Source: Bacteroidota bacterium (lineage in GTDB: Bacteria > Bacteroidota > Rhodothermia > Rhodothermales > JAHQVL01). From it: DNA of 32,639 bases. Of this stretch, positions 1 through 16,447 are shown piece after piece; positions within the stretch are counted from its first letter, which is position 1, and each line of letters opens with the position of its first letter. Below the pieces are notes generated by a model. The model did no database searches, was not told the origin of the DNA, and saw only the letters and a list, made by a program, of their open reading frames with translations. Position numbers and translations under genes: made by a program. The stretch lies in assembly GCA_039111535.1 (NCBI GenBank), contig JBCCIM010000055.1, positions 1-32,639 of the forward strand, written 5' to 3'.

Positions 1-543
1 CCAGAGTACGCCGTAATCGGCCGGGTGGCGCGTCGCCTGTGGGCCAAGGCGCTCAAGCACCTGTACGGGGCAGATGAGCGGGCGCAAAAGCTGAAGTATC
101 ACATTCAGACCAGCGGCCGGTCGCTCCATGCGCAGGAGATCAGCTTCAACGACATCCGCACGACGTTGCAGGCGCTAACCGCCATCTACGACAACGCCAA
201 TTCGCTCCACACCAACGCCTACGACGAGGCGATCACCACCCCGACCGAAGAATCGGTGCGTCGGGCGATGGCGATCCAGCTGATTATCAATAAGGAGTGG
301 GGCTTGGCGTACAACGAAAATCCGATCCAGGGAGCGTTTGTGATCGAGGAGTTGACCGACTTGGTGGAAGAGGCGGTTTTGCAGGAGTTTGAGCGTTTAA
401 CCGAACGAGGTGGCGTATTGGGTGCGATGGAAACGATGTACCAGCGGAGCAAGATTCAGGAGGAGTCGCTCTACTACGAGACGTTAAAGCACAATGGGGA
501 TTACCCGATTATCGGTGTGAATACGTTCTTGGTCTATATCTAA
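1..543 (+). CDS. icmF: Fused isobutyryl-CoA mutase (IcmF), C-terminal part, 5' cut by window and prematurely ended
   Basis: The frame is open from base 1, so the gene begins outside the window. The visible part matches the substrate-binding barrel of adenosylcobalamin-dependent acyl-CoA mutases: [24 protein letters not shown]-like and [13 protein letters not shown] segments typical of IcmF. IcmF interconverts isobutyryl-CoA and n-butyryl-CoA and carries its own G-protein chaperone domain upstream of this part. The oddity is the 3' end. After PIIGVNTFL the frame reads VYI and stops, whereas family members continue for roughly 90-100 residues ending near GGKYRRN. None of the other frames downstream continues it. 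This part also looks more GC-rich than the following genes. It could be a pseudogene, a rearrangement junction or an assembly error. The family call is firm; IcmF versus a close methylmalonyl-CoA mutase relative is less so. Confidence 0.85.
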
Positions 544-1306: not shown

Positions 1307-1440
1307 AAGCATCCAGAAAGCCACCCGACCAGCCTTCTAATTCTTATTTCAGGAATAAAAGGCGAAACACAACAGCTTCCACATGCTACAAGCATGTTAT
1401 ACCCGCCCACGCTGGCCCCTTACTAAAGAATATTTGCAGA

Positions 1441-2217
1441 ATGAGAACAGTGCGTGCTACACGGTATGTGACGCCTCTTCGGGAAGGGGGCTCGTTGCCA
1501 GCTATTGTGGAGGCTGATGACGACGGCACGTACGTGCTTAAATTCAGGGGCGCCGGCCAGGGGCCGCGTGCGCTTGTCGCGGAACTGATAGCAGGAGAAC
1601 TGGCCCGAGCAGCCGGCTTGCCAGTCCCCGAAATTGTATTTATCGAACTCGATATTGAGCTGGCCCGCACCGAGCCCGACCAGGAAATCCGAGACCTGAT
1701 CAAAGCCAGTGATGGGCTAAATCTGGCACTCGATTACCTGCCGGGATCGCTGACCTTTGACCCCGTTGTTGATCAGACTGATGCCCACCTGGCATCTGCC
1801 ATTGTTTGGTTTGATGCCTTCGTCACGAACATTGACCGCACGGCCCGCAATACCAATATGCTCATGTGGCACAAACAGCTCTGGCTCATTGATCATGGGG
1901 CTGCGCTGTATTTTCATCACGCATGGGACAATTATCAGGAACGCAGTAAAGATGCATTTTCTGCTATAAAAAACCACGTTTTGCTGCCGTCTGCCAATGC
2001 CCTTGAAGACGCCGGCCGGCGCATTAGTGCCAAGCTTACAGAAGAGGTTGTTCGAGATATTGTGGCGCTTGTGCCGGCAGCCTGGCTCACTGGCGATTCG
2101 CCGTTTGCTGACATAGCTGCGCACCGGGAAGGATATGTAACGTATCTGCTAAACCGCCTGTCCCCACCATTTAACTTTATGGAGGAGGCTGCCCGTGCCA
2201 GAGCAACGTCTGTATGA
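1441..2217 (+). CDS. HipA-like protein kinase (HipA_2 type)
   Basis: A compact kinase-fold protein of 258 residues. Visible motifs are the ATP-lysine strand YVLKF (K34), a helix glutamate in AELIAGELA (E48), a catalytic-loop segment NIDRTARNTN (D132, N137, N139) and the metal-binding aspartate in LIDHGAAL (D151). These fit the stand-alone HipA-like kinase family (Pfam HipA_2), not full-length HipA, because the N-terminal HipA subdomain and a HipB partner are absent. The gene overlaps the DUF3037 gene by 23 bp, an arrangement seen repeatedly in bacteria, which suggests the two work together. Substrate and role are unknown; the toxin HipA phosphorylates glutamyl-tRNA synthetase, but that cannot be assumed here. 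No helix-turn-helix antitoxin is encoded next to it. Confidence 0.85.
   Translation: MRTVRATRYVTPLREGGSLPAIVEADDDGTYVLKFRGAGQGPRALVAELIAGELARAAGLPVPEIVFIELDIELARTEPDQEIRDLIKASDGLNLALDYLPGSLTFDPVVDQTDAHLASAIVWFDAFVTNIDRTARNTNMLMWHKQLWLIDHGAALYFHHAWDNYQERSKDAFSAIKNHVLLPSANALEDAGRRISAKLTEEVVRDIVALVPAAWLTGDSPFADIAAHREGYVTYLLNRLSPPFNFMEEAARARATSV
2181..2188 (+). promoter_or_regulatory. Strong Shine-Dalgarno deciding a GTG start
   Basis: GGAGGAGG lies six bases before the GTG at 2195, inside the 3' end of the HipA-like kinase gene. It fixes the start of the DUF3037 gene and points to translational coupling. Most other starts in this window lack such a clear site. Confidence 0.8.
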
Positions 2218-2578
2218 TTATGCCATTATCCGGGTAATGCCCCGGGTAGAGCGAGAAGAGTTTATAAACGCCGGCGTTATTTTGTCGTGTAATGCGCATC
2301 GCTTCCTCAAAGCCACCATTGCCCTCGATCCTGATCGCCTCATCGCGCTGGATCCCAACGTTGATTTGGATATGGTTAACGCGCACTTGCGTGCCATAGA
2401 AAAGATCAGTGCCGGTGACCCGGATGCGGGGCCTATTGGGCAATTACATCGCCGCGAGCGCTTTCACTGGCTTGTTGCTCCTCGGAGCACCATGATTCAA
2501 ACCTCGCCTGTGCATACGGGCCACTGTACAGATCCTGAGCAAGCCCTGGCACACCTCGTAGACAAAATGGTCCGGTAA
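2195..2578 (+). CDS. DUF3037 family protein
   Basis: A 127-residue protein matching DUF3037: it opens with YDYAIIRVMPRVEREEFINAG (strand-turn with VxREEFxNxG) and ends with the characteristic RFHWLVAPRSTMIQTSPVHTG segment. There is no signal peptide or membrane helix, so it is cytosolic. It starts at GTG with a strong ribosome site and overlaps the preceding kinase gene, so the two are surely co-translated. The family has no established function. The constant pairing with a HipA-like kinase suggests it is a regulator, substrate or antitoxin-like partner of that kinase, which is inference only. Thirteen bases separate its stop from the converging response-regulator gene. Confidence 0.88.
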   Translation: MPEQRLYDYAIIRVMPRVEREEFINAGVILSCNAHRFLKATIALDPDRLIALDPNVDLDMVNAHLRAIEKISAGDPDAGPIGQLHRRERFHWLVAPRSTMIQTSPVHTGHCTDPEQALAHLVDKMVR

Positions 2579-3520: not shown

Positions 3521-5812
3521 CTACTCTTCCATTGCGGCGTCCGCCTCATCTTCTGTTTCAACAAAGGTATTCCCCACCAATTCCAGCACAATACGATCTG
3601 CATCGTATATATCATCCAGCACTTCGAGGATACCGCGTGCATCTACAGAAATAGCGCGCGCCGTTTTGTCGCGGTAGACATATTCATTGGGGAGCGACTC
3701 GACATTCCCGTCGAAAATCAAACCGACCAACTCCAGGTTGGCGTTTACCAGGGGTGAACCCGAGTTGCCGCCTGTAATGTCATTTGTTGATACAATGTTG
3801 AGGGGGGTTGCAAGATCAAAGCCAGTCGGCCGTTCCCGCCAGCGCTCAGGTAAATCCCACTCACTGCCCGACCCATAAGTAAAGAAATGGTCGTACAGCC
3901 CATAAAATGTGGTTTTGTACGGTGCAACGGTCCCATTGTAATTGTACCCTTTAACCACACCATCAGACAACCGTAGCGAGAATGTGGCATCGGGGGGAAT
4001 GTCTTCACCCAGCACATCCAGGCGCGCGCGCGCTAGCCGGGCACTCAGGTTTTCTTCCCGATCTGCAAAACTGCCATTTTGTTGGCCAAGCGTAAAGTAC
4101 AGGGGGCCTAACGCATTGATAATGGGCACTGCAGCATCTTTGCTAGACAAAAAGCCACTGTCAAGCAATGCATAAAATGCACTGGAATCGGTCAACGCTG
4201 TGCTATCGACCAGCGTTGTCGCCAACTCTTCCGGGGTTTTGCCCTGCAAGATTCCACGCAACGTTGGGTCAGTTGGCCCGAGGTACTTTTTGATTTCATT
4301 GATACGCGCCAACACAAAAGCTTTCTCTACTTCGTCAGGGAAGTCTTTGATTTCGGACGCGTCATTTTTGATGCCATCCAGCGTCTCCTGCGGTGCACCG
4401 CGCTGCTTAAGCAACGCATACGCATAGCCGTAGAGCGCACGGGTAAAGACCCGAGAACCAATGGAGGTGCCAAAATACGTCAGGGCACCTGACTGGCGGG
4501 CTGTTGCCTTTTTCGAAGACTGCACAGCGCGCAATTCCCGGAGCACCACCCCGTATTTCTTTTTAAGATCTGTATCCGCTTCAATCGCAGCAGCAAGTTC
4601 TTTCTCGGCAGCCCCTTTTCGCGCCATCAGATATTCATCCTGCAAGCCTTCAAGTTGTCCGGCATTGGCCTTGATTGAATTGGCTATGGAGAAGTAGGTA
4701 TTGCGCAGTTCATCGAGGCTGTCATCGTCGTCGTTTGCTTCGAGGTACGCTTTGAGTATTTCAGAGCGCGTATCCAGTACTTCGAGTTGCTGCGGCAAGG
4801 CATAATCGCGTTCATACTCAAGCTGGCTCACAGTATTGAGCCGGCTGGTTGAACCCGGACTCCCCACCACAAACACCACATCGCCTTCGCTTACCCCGGT
4901 CTTGCTCCAGGGAAAGAAGTATTCAGTTTTGAGCGGCATACCTTCGTAGTCATAGACGCGAAAGAAGGTCATATCCAGCGAATACCTTGGATAAGTGAAG
5001 TTGTCCTCTTCTCCACCAAATTTCCCAAGCTTGAGCTCCGGTGCAACGACCAAACGTACGTCGTAATACCGTTTGAACGTATATGCAGAGAACTTGCCCC
5101 CGTTGTAAAGAGAGATGACTTGCACCTGCAAGGTGGTATCTCTACCCTTGGCATCGTTTGTCAGGCTCCGTTCGAGCGATTCGATGCGGCGCTTGCGGGC
5201 ATCAGCCTCTTCTTCGTCATTCTGAAAATCAGGCACACCATCGTTCACCCGTTTGGTAACATCCTGTATGTCGATCAGTTGGTCAACATAAAGTTCTTGA
5301 ACACGACGTTCCTCATCGATGGAGCGGGCATAGAAGCCACGATCAAGGAGTGATTCACCCGGCCGGCTCACGTCTGTGATGCTTTCGCGGGCGCAATGGT
5401 GATTGGTAAGCACCAGGCCATTTGGCGAAACAAAGGAAGCAGAGCAATTGTCGCCAAAGCGCAAGGCGCCACGGCTTGCCAGTTCAAACCACTGGTCTGT
5501 CAAGTCGAGATTGTACGCTTCTTTGAAGTAGGTCAATGGTGGATTATCGAAGGTCCACATTTTGCCAGCATCAAAGGTACCGGTTGTCACGGTATCCAAT
5601 GGTGAAACAGGTACATCAGCCCTGGTTTGGCGCTCGGTTACGACTCGATCCTCCGGCGCTTTCTTGGGCCGTTCGGTAATGACAGCCGTTTCACTGGTTG
5701 TTGTGGCGCACCCTGCGATAACGAGCAATGCAGACACAACAAGAACCATATATGCGCGTTCCGGGAAGCGCCGCATGGCGTGCTGGACCGAAACTGAAAG
5801 GGATTTAGACAT
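3521..5812 (-). CDS. S46 family dipeptidyl-peptidase, predicted lipoprotein (DPP7/DPP11 family)
   Basis: A serine peptidase of the S46 family, which removes dipeptides from the N-terminus of peptides in the periplasm or at the surface. The trypsin-like halves are visible: GLVLTNHHC holds the catalytic histidine (H138/H139), EEDNFTYPRYSLDMTFF the aspartate region and TGGNSGSP the nucleophile (S684). After the serine the sequence reads FDGN. In Porphyromonas DPP7 a glycine sits at this S1 position, where DPP11 has arginine, so a DPP7-like preference for non-acidic P1 residues is inferred. The N-terminus has a hydrophobic segment ending VIAGC (C35), a lipobox, then about 45 residues of linker, so it should be membrane-anchored. 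It follows a close paralogue by 51 bp and probably shares its transcript. A terminator follows. Confidence 0.93.
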   Translation of the reverse strand: MSKSLSVSVQHAMRRFPERAYMVLVVSALLVIAGCATTTSETAVITERPKKAPEDRVVTERQTRADVPVSPLDTVTTGTFDAGKMWTFDNPPLTYFKEAYNLDLTDQWFELASRGALRFGDNCSASFVSPNGLVLTNHHCARESITDVSRPGESLLDRGFYARSIDEERRVQELYVDQLIDIQDVTKRVNDGVPDFQNDEEEADARKRRIESLERSLTNDAKGRDTTLQVQVISLYNGGKFSAYTFKRYYDVRLVVAPELKLGKFGGEEDNFTYPRYSLDMTFFRVYDYEGMPLKTEYFFPWSKTGVSEGDVVFVVGSPGSTSRLNTVSQLEYERDYALPQQLEVLDTRSEILKAYLEANDDDDSLDELRNTYFSIANSIKANAGQLEGLQDEYLMARKGAAEKELAAAIEADTDLKKKYGVVLRELRAVQSSKKATARQSGALTYFGTSIGSRVFTRALYGYAYALLKQRGAPQETLDGIKNDASEIKDFPDEVEKAFVLARINEIKKYLGPTDPTLRGILQGKTPEELATTLVDSTALTDSSAFYALLDSGFLSSKDAAVPIINALGPLYFTLGQQNGSFADREENLSARLARARLDVLGEDIPPDATFSLRLSDGVVKGYNYNGTVAPYKTTFYGLYDHFFTYGSGSEWDLPERWRERPTGFDLATPLNIVSTNDITGGNSGSPLVNANLELVGLIFDGNVESLPNEYVYRDKTARAISVDARGILEVLDDIYDADRIVLELVGNTFVETEDEADAAMEE

Positions 5813-5863: not shown

Positions 5864-8032
5864 TTATTCGCCACCGCCCACTGCTGCGTCGTCACTGACA
5901 AGTACATCATTGGCCAGTTCTTCAACAATACGGTCCGCTTCATACACGGCATCCAGTGCTTCCAACATGCCACGGGCATCAACTGAAACTGAACGGGCAC
6001 GATCTGGCAAATAGATGTAGTTACCCGACAGGCTTTCGATGTTGCCGTCAAAAATAAGCCCGACCAACTCCAGGTCTTTGTTGACAATCGGAGAACCAGA
6101 ATTGCCCCCGATGATGTCATTGGTTGACGCAAAGTTTACGGGTACCGAAAGGTCCAGGTCTTTAGGTGCAGCTTTCCACCGTTCGGGCAAATCCCACTCG
6201 CTTTCGCTGCCATATGAATGGTAATGATCGTACAGCCCAAAGAAGCTCGTAAAAGGTGATGCATACGTGCCATTGTATGGATAGCCTTGCACTACACCAT
6301 CCGCGAGGCGGAGTGAAAACGTTGCATCTGGTGGTATTTCGTTTTGATAAACGGCATAGCGCGCACGACCAATGCTGCTGGCGATTTCACTTTGCTGGGC
6401 ACTCAGGCCGGCAAAGGCGCTTTGATACGTCTGGTACGTTTCGATAAAGCTATCAACCAGTTTGATTGCTGGATCCATGGCGTCCAATGTGCCTGCATCA
6501 AGTGCTTCGGTCAATTGCGCCTGTGATGCCAGCGCAGACGACCCGACAATGCCCTGCGCACGGTCTGTAGCAGACTGCCCAGTTAACAGGGCACCGACAA
6601 GTTCGCTTTCGGTGCCAAATGCAGCCGTCATATCCTGCAACCGCGTTTTCAGAAACTGGAGATCAAGTCCGGCAGGTGTGTCTGCGATGCCCAGTAGTTG
6701 CTCTTTTAATGGCGCCAGTTGCTCGCCGCCGCCAGCCGCCATACGATCCAGGTAGCCATGGGCAAGGATGGCGCGCCGTAATAGAGCAGCGGAATATGTC
6801 CCACTTGTCAGCGCAAAAAAGGCAGCATGCTCTTTGCTGTAGGCGCGCATTTCTTTTTGAATGGCCGCCATATCCTCCATCAATGAGCCATAATCTGCAG
6901 CGAGGTCATCATCAGCTGAAATCGCTTTAACAAACTGCCCCTCCGCGTCCCTTCGTCGGGCCATAATCACGGGATCTGCGAGCGCAGCCAGTTGGCCGGC
7001 ATATGCCTTTTCAGCATTCAAAAGAGAGAAAAGCTGGTTGCGGACCGCATTTTTTGCATCATCTGTTGTCGCTGCATCCTGGTAGTCGCGTAACGCCTGG
7101 ATGTGACTCTTGATGAAGGCCAGTAAATTTTTGTCCGTCATATCCCGGCGTCCTTCAAGCTGGGCAACCGTTTCGAGCCGGCTGGTGCTGCCAGGATTTC
7201 CTATCACAAAGACGGGCTCCCCAATTTGTGCGCCATCCATGCTCCACAAGAAGTAGTGTTCAGGCTCAAACGGGACGTTGTCATCATAGACCCGAAAAAA
7301 GGTCATATCGAGCGCATAACGAGGGAACGTAAAGTTATCAGCATCTCCTCCATAGTAGCCCATTTGCAGTTCAGGCGTGAAGACGAGTCGCACGTCATCG
7401 TAACGCTTGAACGTATAGGCAGCGTATTTACCGCCGTGGTAAAAAGGAATAATTTCAATAACGTATCCGGCCTCTTCCCCCCCCAATCCATCCAATAACA
7501 TAGCCGTTACGGCATCGATGGTATCTTGCCTGGCCTGCGCACGTTCAGCATCTGTTTCGCCGCGCATTTCTGCTTCCCGTACTGCCTGGGTAACATCTTC
7601 AATGGCAACAAGCTGATCAGCATAGTAGCCGGGTACCTGGCGCTCCTCTTCAAGCGTAGTGGCATAAAAACCGTCTTCCGTCAACCGCTCGCCTGGATTG
7701 GACACCTGGGTCACAGCATTGCGGGCGCAATGGTGGTTTGTGAGCACCAGCCCATATCCCGACACAAACGACGCTGAACATCCGGGAATACGGAGTGCGC
7801 CAAGCCTGGCTGTATCAAACCATGACTGAGATGGCGTAAAGTTATACGCTTCTTCAAAGTACTCAAAAGGTGGATGATCGAACGTCCACATTTTGCCGTT
7901 ATCAAACCGGCCGGCTTTGTCTGCGTCCTGGCCGTATGCCGTATGTGGCAACAATACAATCAGTGCCAGCAGACTTGCGCAGACTATGCGCAAAGTGGAT
8001 CCGGCTTGAATCATTAGTTTTTCTTGTCTCAT
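5864..8032 (-). CDS. S46 family dipeptidyl-peptidase, secreted paralogue
   Basis: Second S46 peptidase, 722 residues, close to the usual family length. It has a type I signal peptide (hydrophobic residues about 13-34, cleavage near AYG-Q), histidine in GLVLTNHHC (H100/H101), the DNFTFPRYALDMTFF aspartate region and nucleophile S645 in GGNSGSP, followed by FDGN as in its neighbour. The middle helical cap domain (about 280-540) is more divergent between the two copies than the catalytic halves. It is the first gene of the pair, so a promoter should lie upstream, where dyads at 8107-8132 are found. An in-frame ATG six codons in (8014) is an alternative start. Both enzymes suit an organism that feeds on proteins or peptides, as expected from the family. 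Confidence 0.93.
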   Translation of the reverse strand: MRQEKLMIQAGSTLRIVCASLLALIVLLPHTAYGQDADKAGRFDNGKMWTFDHPPFEYFEEAYNFTPSQSWFDTARLGALRIPGCSASFVSGYGLVLTNHHCARNAVTQVSNPGERLTEDGFYATTLEEERQVPGYYADQLVAIEDVTQAVREAEMRGETDAERAQARQDTIDAVTAMLLDGLGGEEAGYVIEIIPFYHGGKYAAYTFKRYDDVRLVFTPELQMGYYGGDADNFTFPRYALDMTFFRVYDDNVPFEPEHYFLWSMDGAQIGEPVFVIGNPGSTSRLETVAQLEGRRDMTDKNLLAFIKSHIQALRDYQDAATTDDAKNAVRNQLFSLLNAEKAYAGQLAALADPVIMARRRDAEGQFVKAISADDDLAADYGSLMEDMAAIQKEMRAYSKEHAAFFALTSGTYSAALLRRAILAHGYLDRMAAGGGEQLAPLKEQLLGIADTPAGLDLQFLKTRLQDMTAAFGTESELVGALLTGQSATDRAQGIVGSSALASQAQLTEALDAGTLDAMDPAIKLVDSFIETYQTYQSAFAGLSAQQSEIASSIGRARYAVYQNEIPPDATFSLRLADGVVQGYPYNGTYASPFTSFFGLYDHYHSYGSESEWDLPERWKAAPKDLDLSVPVNFASTNDIIGGNSGSPIVNKDLELVGLIFDGNIESLSGNYIYLPDRARSVSVDARGMLEALDAVYEADRIVEELANDVLVSDDAAVGGGE

Positions 8033-13651: not shown

Positions 13652-16447
13652 CTAGTTATCCCAGTTTTTGCTTGATCTGCACTCAAGTCTATTCATCGCA
13701 CGTTTGCGGCGTTTTCTGCTTTGATCTTCAAAAAGGCCGGCTGCTTTCTCACACAATTCCGGGTTCACTTCCAGAACCGGTCCAACAACGTCGATAAGAT
13801 CAAGCAAAGACTCAAAATCTTCATCAGACCACTCATGTTCTAGCTCGTATTGCAAGTGCTCAAGTTCGAGTAGGGCCTCTTCCAATTCCAATCCAGATAA
13901 GGTTAACTCGTGCTCTAACTCAGCAAGTGCATCTTCATCAAATTTGAGGCCCTCCAGACTATAAGCCACTTCTTCGAGTGCATCAGCCGTCAGGCTAAGC
14001 GATAACTCACCGATGGCAAGTCCTATTTGGCCGGCAGAAGCACCAATTTCTGCCATTGCCTCGCCAAATGCTGCTCCATCCCAATCGTTATCATTGTCCC
14101 AATCCTGGTCGTTATCGTTATCCCAGTCCTGGTCGTTATCGTTATCCCAGTCATTATCGTTGTCCCAATCCTGGTCATTATCGTTATCCCATCCATGGCC
14201 AGCATCTGCATCCCAGCGATCATCACCATAATCGAGCTCACTCAGTGCCATGGTTGCGTAGCGACGCACTTCACTATTTTCGTCCTTTAGCGCTTTAGTT
14301 AACGCATCAACTGCACTTACATCGCCTATTTCGCCTAATGCAATGGCTGCATACTTCCTGATTTCAGGGTCTTTGTCTTTCTGCAGCAATTCGGTAAACA
14401 ACAACATGCTTTCTTCATCTGCACGGTCGGAGATAGCCATTACAGCGTGGCTCCGTACATCCGGGTCTTTGTCTTTAACAGCTTTTCGAAGTAACCGAAG
14501 TGACGCCTCATCATCATACTCACCCAATGCCATAACGGCAGCGCGACGGATATCGGGGTCTTTATCACTGAGCGCCTTGCCTATAGCAGGCAAGGCAGAT
14601 TCATCTTCGCGATCTGCAAGCCCGTATAGTGCATATCGACGTACTTCAGGGTCCGCATCTTCAAGCATTTCGATGAGAATGGCCGTTGTACTATCGTCAC
14701 CATTATCAACGATACCCATCAGTGCATAGCGACGAATCTCAGGGTCACGGTCATCTAAAACGGTAACAAGGGCCTCAACAGCGCGGCGATCATCAACATC
14801 AGCCAATGCAATTGCAGCATATTGACGCACTTCTCGGTCGCGGTCAGCAAGGGCCTTGATGTACACGTCAAGTGCTTCATCAGCATCCAGTTCGCTCAGT
14901 GCCATGATTGCAAAACGACGCACTTCCCTGTCAGAATCACGAAGCGCCAACGCTGCAATCATGTTTACAGCACCCAGGTCATTTATTTCGCTGAGCGTTT
15001 GCAAGGCATGCTGGCGTACTTCAGCATCTTCATCGCTAAGCGAATTACGCAATGCTTTTATTGCCATTTTTCGGGCGCGACGCTGCTCTTCACTGGTATC
15101 AGCTACAGCGCTTCTACGATCGCGCCTGAGCGCACGTGAATCCCTGAGGGCAAAGTCATTATCCCTTTCCCACTCAGGCTCGACGCCAAGGCTGTTTTCA
15201 GCTTTACCGTCTGCATGGTTTTTGTTCAGGAAAACAAACCCCGGCGCAGTACTCTGCGAAATCAATGTATTAGAATTGGATTCTGCAAGCTGCCAGGGGC
15301 TCAGCGCTGTAATAGGTAACATTACTGCTGTAGCAAGAATGCAGGTAAGGACCGTCCCAACGCGGTTCAACGTCCGTCTTTTCCGCGCAGGATCCAGGAT
15401 ATCAACTACCCGACCTTCAAGTTGCGACGGCTTTGCCATTGAAATGGTGTTCAGTGGAGATACCCACGACATTTTGAGCGAGCGCGCGATATCGAGCAAG
15501 TGGCTTGCATAAGCAGACGCTTTCATGCCCTGAGAGAGCACCAAATCGTCACATGCTTTTTCCTGTTCGATGCGCATTCGCTGCAGGCCCTGCCATGCCA
15601 TCGGATTAAACCAGTGCAAGGCGCAACCCAGCTGCGCGCCAAACTGCGTGAGGGTATCCCAGCGTTTGATGTGTGCCATTTCATGCAGTAGCACATAGCG
15701 CCGGCGCTCTTCCGACCAGTCATCAGCATCGATGGGTAACAGAATCACCGGACGCCATGCTCCCCACGTCATGGGAGACGAAACACTTGCACTCATTTTA
15801 AGCGCAACAGGGCGATAAATTAGCAAACGATCTGCAAGCTCGTCTGTCAGGTCATCCCAATCATCACCTTCGGGCGCGCGTGACTGTATGGTAATCCACC
15901 AGGCACCAGCCAGTCCTGTGAAGGTCCAAAACAAAACAGCTGCGATACCCAACCCCCAAACCCCAAGAATGAGCGTGGACCAGTGGGCGTCTTTTACATA
16001 ATTGATAATCGGGCTCAACACCCAGTTGGTATTTTCGCGTGCGGGTGTGGCATAAACAGCTGCTGCGTCTGATTCCGCTGCGGTCTCGCGTTGCTCAGGA
16101 AACCGTTCTGTTGTATTTGGAGGGGTTGTCAGCCAAACTGGCGCTTCGGCGTCGGTTGACCGCAAGCCGGCTTCAGGAAAGGCCTGGGTATTTTCAGCTG
16201 CTAGCTGCGCTTCAAAAGGCTGCGGTATAAGCGGCACAGACACACGGGGTAAAACAGCAGAGAACAGTGGCAGCATCAATATCATGATCAGCGCCGTAGC
16301 CCAAATCAGGTGCCGCGCTGCGGCAGCAGAGCGAGAGAGCATGCCGGTAAGAATGCGCGCACCCAATAAAATCAGTAGGCCCTTGATAAACAGGTCTGCC
16401 AGTACCATCAAGATATCATATAAAGGTTCATCTACAATAAAATTCAT
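13652..16447 (-). CDS. M56 (BlaR1-like) membrane metallopeptidase fused to HEAT repeats and a Trp/Asp-rich repeat
   Basis: Residues 1-390 are a BlaR1/MecR1-type protease. Predicted membrane helices lie at about 13-33, 45-66, 157-186 and 363-383, with zinc motif HEMAH (255-259) and downstream ligand glutamate E296 in EQEKACDD. The usual C-terminal penicillin-binding sensor is absent. Instead there are nine HEAT-like repeats at 463-740 with a 31-32 residue period (DPEVRRYA-type cores), a tandem WDNDND/WDNDNDQD segment (752-790) and an acidic, leucine-rich helical tail. By membrane topology, the part after the fourth helix should be periplasmic, as the sensor is in BlaR1, but I cannot confirm this. 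It starts two bases after the BlaI-type gene, so the pair is one operon and this protein should inactivate the repressor on a signal. No beta-lactamase gene is adjacent. Confidence 0.93.
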   Translation of the reverse strand: MNFIVDEPLYDILMVLADLFIKGLLILLGARILTGMLSRSAAAARHLIWATALIMILMLPLFSAVLPRVSVPLIPQPFEAQLAAENTQAFPEAGLRSTDAEAPVWLTTPPNTTERFPEQRETAAESDAAAVYATPARENTNWVLSPIINYVKDAHWSTLILGVWGLGIAAVLFWTFTGLAGAWWITIQSRAPEGDDWDDLTDELADRLLIYRPVALKMSASVSSPMTWGAWRPVILLPIDADDWSEERRRYVLLHEMAHIKRWDTLTQFGAQLGCALHWFNPMAWQGLQRMRIEQEKACDDLVLSQGMKASAYASHLLDIARSLKMSWVSPLNTISMAKPSQLEGRVVDILDPARKRRTLNRVGTVLTCILATAVMLPITALSPWQLAESNSNTLISQSTAPGFVFLNKNHADGKAENSLGVEPEWERDNDFALRDSRALRRDRRSAVADTSEEQRRARKMAIKALRNSLSDEDAEVRQHALQTLSEINDLGAVNMIAALALRDSDREVRRFAIMALSELDADEALDVYIKALADRDREVRQYAAIALADVDDRRAVEALVTVLDDRDPEIRRYALMGIVDNGDDSTTAILIEMLEDADPEVRRYALYGLADREDESALPAIGKALSDKDPDIRRAAVMALGEYDDEASLRLLRKAVKDKDPDVRSHAVMAISDRADEESMLLFTELLQKDKDPEIRKYAAIALGEIGDVSAVDALTKALKDENSEVRRYATMALSELDYGDDRWDADAGHGWDNDNDQDWDNDNDWDNDNDQDWDNDNDQDWDNDNDWDGAAFGEAMAEIGASAGQIGLAIGELSLSLTADALEEVAYSLEGLKFDEDALAELEHELTLSGLELEEALLELEHLQYELEHEWSDEDFESLLDLIDVVGPVLEVNPELCEKAAGLFEDQSRKRRKRAMNRLECRSSKNWDN
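14078..14191 (-). repeat. Tandem repeat coding WDNDND(QD)
   Basis: In-frame repeats of 18 and 24 bp encode alternating WDNDND and WDNDNDQD units, six copies of the W-D core. The DNA is near-identical between units (CAATCCTGGTCGTTATCGTT-like on the plus strand), which indicates recent expansion or slippage. Dense Asp/Asn suggests calcium binding, as in other DxDxD loops; this is inference. Confidence 0.9.
14228..15061 (-). repeat. Nine HEAT-like repeats, 93-96 bp period
   Basis: Conserved V/I-R cores fall at residues 477, 509, 540, 571, 602, 633, 664, 696 and 727 of the M56 protein. Each repeat reads approximately KALxDxDPEVRRYAxxALxx. The units are similar enough in protein sequence to indicate internal duplication. 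Confidence 0.9.

Follow-up and report, generated by a model that had tools for sequence, protein, structure and literature searches.

A HipA_2-family kinase gene overlapping a DUF3037-only partner gene: a lineage separate from HipAD

Described kinase–DUF3037 pairs and the locus in the window

Published pairs of a HipA-type kinase and a DUF3037 protein carry a larger partner than the one considered here and were read as phage defence. The paper on one of them, HipAD, is said to be that of Brenes and Laub from 2025. According to the DefensePredictor report, DS-6, renamed HipAD, consists of a kinase and a DUF3037-DUF1829 protein, the two proteins are predicted to bind, and a catalytic mutation in the kinase abolishes phage defence (PMC13092281). 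A second pair, a neighbour of retron Sda1, was shown by experiment to act alone as a kinase toxin with a DUF3037 antitoxin; in that report, deletion of the kinase removed defence against Bas51 and deletion of DUF3037 was toxic (PMC12548924). The same report gives the Sda1 partner a C-terminal region like that of a DNA-binding protein (PMC12548924). The partner in the window (the whole stretch of 32,639 nucleotides that was analysed) is without a C-terminal half beyond DUF3037. The same two families are also combined in the PADLOC candidate PDC-M66, and both of its gene models match the pair in the window. In the literature searched, we found no report of, or experiment on, a kinase paired with a DUF3037-only (short) partner. 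The pairing of the kinase and DUF3037 families is known; a separate lineage with a DUF3037-only partner is apparently unstudied.

A preliminary description of the locus, made from its letters, had proposed a HipA-like kinase gene overlapping a DUF3037 gene. This holds: the two open reading frames (Table 1) score above the Pfam cut-offs for PF20613 and PF11236, respectively. A scan around the pair for a sigma-70-type consensus and for terminators found none. A response-regulator gene in the opposite orientation lies 13 nt 3' of the DUF3037 gene. The window begins (1-543, plus strand) with the 3' end of a gene of the B12-dependent methylmalonyl-CoA-mutase family, cut at the contig start; a tie between this fragment and the pair was considered and found unsupported after the cobQ surveys of carriers given below. 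A tie to the upstream HxlR gene was likewise dropped. In the neighbourhoods of relatives, the 25 of 104 families listed for 61 genes upstream of the pair do not include HxlR, whose recurrence is therefore slight at most. Farther along the window, on the minus strand, lie two adjacent S46 peptidase genes (3521-5812 and 5864-8032; 607.7 and 562.1 bits), an apparent tandem pair, and a gene (13652-16447) for one protein in which a long series of HEAT repeats comes after a BlaR1-type M56 peptidase domain.

Table 1. Features of the kinase–DUF3037 locus and their positions in the window
Feature	Position	Strand	Basis
HipA_2-family core kinase gene, ATG start, 258 aa	1441..2217	+	ORF, Pfam, PADLOC, alignment, model
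DUF3037 partner gene, GTG start, 127 aa, domain DUF3037 only	2195..2578	+	ORF, Pfam, PADLOC, model
Shine-Dalgarno GGAGGAGG within the kinase gene, 6 nt 5' of the DUF3037 GTG	2181..2188	+	sequence
Overlap of the kinase and DUF3037 genes, 23 nt, different frames	2195..2217		like overlaps in relatives of several phyla
Gap of 134 nt between the HxlR-type regulator gene and the kinase gene, presumed promoter region	1307..1440

The two proteins and the overlap of their genes

The window kinase scores 79.9 bits with the Pfam HipA_2 model (PF20613, cut-off 27) and 97.2 bits (2.2e-28) with the PADLOC PDC-M66A model. An alignment of 50 kinases shows no variation at K34, D132, N137, and D151, the motifs earlier called intact, nor at G16, G17, and S18, which belong to a loop near the N-terminus. 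By analogy with HipA, we take the four motif residues to be the ATP lysine, the catalytic Asp and Asn, and the metal Asp; that S18 is the autophosphorylation site is a guess. The AlphaFold model of the kinase (pLDDT 93.8) is nearest, among solved structures, to CtkA (Z 16.2, rmsd 3.1 over 210 residues, 16% identity), followed by PI4K IIα (Z 13.6), CotH kinase (12.3), and Fam20 (11.4), and it also matches HipA (4pu4_B; Z 11.1, rmsd 3.7 over 186 residues). Since the core-kinase alignments take up the whole 258 aa model, the N-subdomain-1 of HipA is absent, and the protein is, as modelled, a core HipA/CtkA-fold kinase without it. By sequence, no convincing solved relative was found for either the kinase or the DUF3037 protein. 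Two Leptolyngbya plasmids (AP018204.1 and NZ_CP092420.1, 390724-390936) match residues 185-255 of the kinase only, and in one of them an annotated DUF3037 gene lies beneath the match; the kinase there is perhaps split or shortened.

The partner covers the whole Pfam DUF3037 model (PF11236, positions 1-118 of 118) with 156.1 bits against a cut-off of 22.6, and positions 3-128 of the 281 of the PADLOC PDC-M66B profile (4e-9). Its model is one confident domain (pLDDT 95.3) of three strands, four helices, two strands, and a final helix. Conserved residues of the DUF3037 protein include R13, R89, W92, R97, S98, Q102, and H107. No clear match to a solved structure was obtained for this model (best Foldseek E 0.55; VIA, Z 3.4), and no HipS-like fold was among the matches listed. 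The predicted fold is unrecognised among solved structures and may be a new one, which this result by itself does not prove. DNA-binding proteins are among the weak matches (AcrIIA15, Z 2.6; PARP WGR, Z 2.4-2.5), and the partner may yet bind DNA. Pfam found DUF3037 in 35 of 35 short partners scanned, with one extra weak match (ACBP4_C) in one of them, and no HTH or other recognised DNA-binding domain in any of the 35, which agrees with the earlier suggestion of a module without a DNA-binding antitoxin.

The GTG start of the partner had been placed behind a ribosome site within the kinase gene, and GGAGGAGG is indeed found there, coding for Glu-Glu at the kinase C-terminus. Relatives were compared at named loci, the best 80 of 136 matches for the window DUF3037, a sample that for this reason favours the short form. 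The two genes overlap by 11-26 nt in 78 of the 80 loci and by 4 nt in 2; the overlap is 14 nt long in 39, 23 nt in 30, 17 nt in 5, and 11, 4, or 26 nt in 2 loci each. The named loci span Pseudomonadota, Myxococcota, Acidobacteriota, Chloroflexota, Actinomycetota, Spirochaetota, Bacteroidota, and Ignavibacteriota. With 15 loci from the window's kin added (95 in all), at least five bases of AAGGAGGTGA stand within 20 nt of the DUF3037 start in 68, six of them with GGTGA only, and 19 are without any AAGGAGGTGA match near the start. At the Shine-Dalgarno position the Glu-Glu of the kinase is spelled GAGGAG in 39 of 45 cases, whereas genes nearby use this spelling for 134 of their 374 Glu-Glu pairs (Fisher p = 4.6e-11), and from this excess the ribosome site itself seems selected. 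Judging by the sequences, both the overlap and the Shine-Dalgarno seem to be under selection. Twenty further loci from the window's phylum, together with 3 named ones from Bacteroidota, also keep an overlap of 11, 14, or 23 nt; GGAGG occurs in none of these 23, and AAGGA in two. Of the other 14 short loci in the window's order, 11 show a 4 nt overlap or no overlap, and a search near the DUF3037 start gave no Shine-Dalgarno match in those 11; coupling is therefore not essential. As to a translationally coupled unit, the conserved overlap and ribosome site fit it, but this arrangement is missing from most short loci of the order, and we infer the coupling of the two genes from their sequence.

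Linkage, short and long forms, and genomic setting

The recurrent pairing of the two families, asserted before, is borne out by each sample. A kinase gene stands directly upstream of DUF3037 in 80 of the 80 named loci (best 80 of 136); upstream of short DUF3037 genes it stands in 49/49 cases (296 genomes from the window's phylum) and in 27/27 (250 genomes from one β-proteobacterial family), compared with 14/18 and 9/12 for long ones, where short and long mean a stop-to-stop frame of less than 260 aa or of more. Some DUF3037 match is present in 66 of the 296 phylum genomes, 49 of them short. Kinase matches without an adjoining DUF3037 match make up 13 of 76 rows in the phylum (19-70 bits) and 9 of 46 in the family (21-43 bits). 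Among 60 genomes, the window's own and its relatives, both families are confined to the same 15, with 16 loci each; 15 of the 16 loci are of the short form, one cut by the contig end. The pairing of short DUF3037 with the kinase is not due to chance. Among the short loci, no broken one turned up to tell which of the two genes cannot be lost alone.

Several single loci deserve mention. The second locus of genome G010, with its 307 aa open frame, resembles the long form; G010 and G208 each combine a short locus with a long-form locus or partner match. Long-form kinase matches run in two frames (L145, G256:C8) or contain an internal stop (G596:C5) beside an open DUF3037 gene. A broken kinase with a kept partner is what an antitoxin model predicts and may be what these two cases show, although sequencing errors are possible. 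At the long-form locus L149 (G288:C1:417000-434000), part of the kinase and DUF3037 share one 429 aa frame, which may be a fusion or a frameshift.

The two forms are sharply separated. In a comparison that covered 37 of the 39 DUF3037 places of the β-proteobacterial family, 26 short-form partners have 129-153 aa and score 178-218 bits to the short-form profile, 11 long-form partners have 267-282 aa and score 19-48 bits, and no length or score falls between them. The kinases score 397-430 bits to the short-form profile in the short loci versus 26-55 in the long ones, where a kinase was found in 9 of 11. These profiles were built on short forms, and Pfam's own models give the same gap: DUF3037 scores 137-155 bits in short versus at most 98 in long partners, and the kinase model, in the reversed direction, gives 158-284 bits for the main long matches versus 53-77 for the short. 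Pfam found DUF3037 in the 8 long partners scanned and reported no DUF1829 in these 8. In a kinase tree with 59 members, a 100/100 branch parts the 48 short-form kinases from the 11 long-form ones, with five of the long rows deviating in composition and two having long branches; the window kinase is placed among the short ones and HipA of Escherichia phage PhiR5_1 among the long. Within the sample of the β-proteobacterial family, mean identity is 63% for short kinases (n 26) and 39% for long ones (n 8). HipAD, annotated as HipA/HipD in phage PhiR5_1, shares with the window pair the order of the genes (kinase first, DUF3037 second), a short gene overlap, and a HipA_2 kinase with an NxDRT motif. 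However, HipD has 275 aa, with about 150 aa past DUF3037, and long forms are seen on a phage, on plasmids, and near restriction genes. The window proteins share 29% identity over 154 residues with HipA of PhiR5_1 and 22% over 119 with HipD. Because its partner is without the C-terminal half of HipD, its kinase lies across the 100/100 split, and its relatives have no defence genes nearby at the scanned loci, are scarce in plasmid records, and do not occur at full length in phage records, the window pair is not HipAD proper but a deeply separate lineage.

The setting was read by flank comparison and with a codon-scored gene caller. Among 95 genes at most 7.5 kb from 11 long loci, 91 PADLOC families match, with restriction-modification and MADS models foremost in the 25 of 91 families listed; many of the listed families are overlapping methyltransferase models. 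The 95 genes scanned around 8 short loci gave matches to 7 families: mad3, hit in four genes; four E1-E2 models; one PolA-like model; and M66A, the last because the kinase of locus L141 was itself among the scanned genes. The mad3 model also matches three genes near long loci. The short-locus scan covered 95 of 156 genes at 8 of 13 hand-picked loci, all outside the cobalamin operon described below, and left out one long gene from L134 and one from L135. A PADLOC scan of the ten genes around the window pair turned up no defence gene proper; its matches were weak ones only, to a LuxR-type regulator (two) and a HEAT-repeat protein (three). When the window kinase was compared with 72,556 plasmid records, 12 matched, 5 of them over at least 80%, one of these 5 being as large as a chromosome. 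Among 50,697 phage records there were 2 matches, neither over 80%. The genes directly beside the pair at 62 other short loci (61 upstream and 61 downstream genes) are mixed household genes. The families listed for them (25 of 104 upstream and 25 of 79 downstream, some recurrences being the same place in related species) include HSP90, DnaJ, uracil-DNA glycosylase, and phasin, and some short loci adjoin RecX/PyrE/ArgH. On plasmid unnamed2 of Streptomyces globosus (L159:6939-10569), a short pair stands between genes for a phosphopantetheinyl transferase and a crotonyl-CoA carboxylase/reductase, beside ketosynthase genes. At the loci examined, the short lineage is outside defence islands. Both flanks are shared within one linked group of 40 of 109 short loci and, among 23 loci of the window's phylum, within groups of 10, 3, and 2. 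With moderate confidence, we take the lineage to be chromosomal, its pairs being ordinary residents of the genome and not defence modules carried on islands.

Possible mechanism and comparison with known systems

The reading that we hold with moderate confidence is that of a bicistronic pair in which an active core kinase is restrained by a co-translated DUF3037 protein, and whose role on the chromosome could be other than phage defence. Ribosomes translating the kinase gene would reach the internal start, and DUF3037 would be made in step with the kinase. The DUF3037 protein would bind the kinase and keep it inactive; a signal, which could be a phage, stress, or a metabolic cue, would release it, and the freed kinase would phosphorylate a cellular target and slow growth. 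Control would run through protein binding and coupled translation instead of promoter repression; as the partner is without a recognised DNA-binding part, HipBA-type autoregulation is not expected. Kinase activity, binding, inhibition, growth effect, trigger, and target are what we infer for this pair, and the restraint of the kinase is suggested by analogy, from the toxic deletion of DUF3037 in the distant Sda1 cousin. The preliminary description had offered a kinase-inhibitor or toxin-antitoxin-like module. The analogy with HipAD and the Sda1 pair favours this (PMC13092281; PMC12548924), but the description had missed the HipAD and PDC-M66 relatives and, as to the class of module, the separate lineage outside defence islands at the loci examined.

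The linked group mentioned above has the pair within a cobalamin operon, and a role in cobalamin biosynthesis, e.g., as a threonine kinase feeding CobD, was weighed. In Comamonas (L067:792-8636) the order is cobO-bluB-cbiB-cobD-[kinase-DUF3037]-cobQ-cobT, where the cobD match is below the curated cut-off, and cobQ is nearby in 45 of 121 loci and in 34 of 80 named ones (best 80 of 136); because some genomes are counted twice among L034-L142, the 45/121, like the 40/109 of the linked group, counts loci and not species. However, 76 of the 121 loci, 11 of them of the long form, have no cobalamin gene in the stretch examined. None of the 60 genomes of the window's kin, among them all 15 carriers, has a cobQ match that reaches the cut-off, and of 31 named carriers chosen from outside the operon clade 7 have one; the model works, as 7 of 14 well-known genomes used as a control pass. 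A general B12 role is refuted, carriers outside the operon clade being mostly without cobQ, and we give practically no credence to a role in cobalamin biosynthesis for the pair. The operon also provides a measure of the pace of evolution. At 30 of its loci the kinase averages 79% identity and DUF3037 82%; the averages for the neighbouring products are 85% for CobO (17 loci), 80% for CobQ, 78% for CobT (29 loci), 71% for CbiB, and 66% for CobD. In this one clade, the pair thus changes about as fast as the metabolic genes beside it. Resident, syntenic loci among household genes (HSP90, DnaJ, RecX/PyrE/ArgH, and others) would also suit a DUF3037 protein that is no inhibitor but an obligate subunit or substrate adaptor of one constitutive housekeeping kinase. 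This is also in line with the strong conservation of both proteins across phyla and with the finding of a kinase-less short partner in 0 of 76 loci in two samples. We nevertheless regard it as improbable. The presence of the pair is patchy in the phylum (DUF3037 in 66 of 296 genomes, 49 short), so the pair is dispensable, and the toxicity of removing DUF3037 from the Sda1 pair fits an inhibitor better than a needed subunit (PMC12548924).

The families and the order of genes are also those of an abortive-infection system like HipAD, in which a phage would disturb DUF3037 and the freed kinase would stop the cell. Both PADLOC models are matched (M66A 2.2e-28, M66B 4e-9), DS-6/HipAD and the Sda1 pair defend against phages (PMC13092281; PMC12548924), and presence in the window's order is sporadic (15 of 60 genomes). 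Against this stand the 100/100 branch that parts the short from the long kinases, the 7 PADLOC families near short loci versus 91 near long ones (95 genes each), the weak matches around the window pair, the near absence of the short kinase, at more than 80% cover, from phage (0/50,697) and plasmid (5/72,556) records, and the metabolic pace of evolution in one clade. Both the setting and the evolution of the pair speak against a module dedicated to defence, and we consider the abortive-infection reading unlikely.

The bare-DUF3037 lineage, present in many phyla and, in at least one clade, a stable neighbour of metabolic genes, is the minimal form in which to ask what DUF3037 does to a HipA-type kinase, and it lets one ask whether such kinases work outside defence. 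Since the partner is without a recognised DNA-binding part, the pair also tests the need for promoter control in a HipA-type module. A further proposal is more tentative, and on balance we rather doubt it: the short pair would be a resident kinase-regulator pair with an unrecognised partner fold and no part in defence, and HipAD an island-borne offshoot to which a DNA-binding-like half was added and which was recruited to phage defence. If this were true, a widespread growth-control kinase with its inhibitor would have been overlooked, its best-known cousins being labelled defence.

Compared with HipBA, the window pair has a kinase with the same core fold (4pu4_B), and the DRxxxN spacing is as in HipA. 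The pair differs from HipBA in having no N-subdomain-1, in placing the toxin-type gene first, and in a partner with no Pfam HTH; the partners of HipBA and, probably, of HipAD have a DNA-binding part, whereas the short DUF3037 has no recognised one. CtkA of Helicobacter pylori is the solved structure nearest to the window kinase model, yet sequence identity is low, and to our knowledge CtkA has no DUF3037 partner. The core-only kinases HipG, HipM, HipI, and HipJ, as described by Gerdes (2021, PMC8262856), have bicistronic partners of the HipS, HipS-HIRAN, Stl-like, or resolvase-like kind and not DUF3037. In the same paper, these kinases are, like the window kinase, without N-subdomain-1, and they share with it a Gly-rich loop near the N-terminus (PMC8262856).
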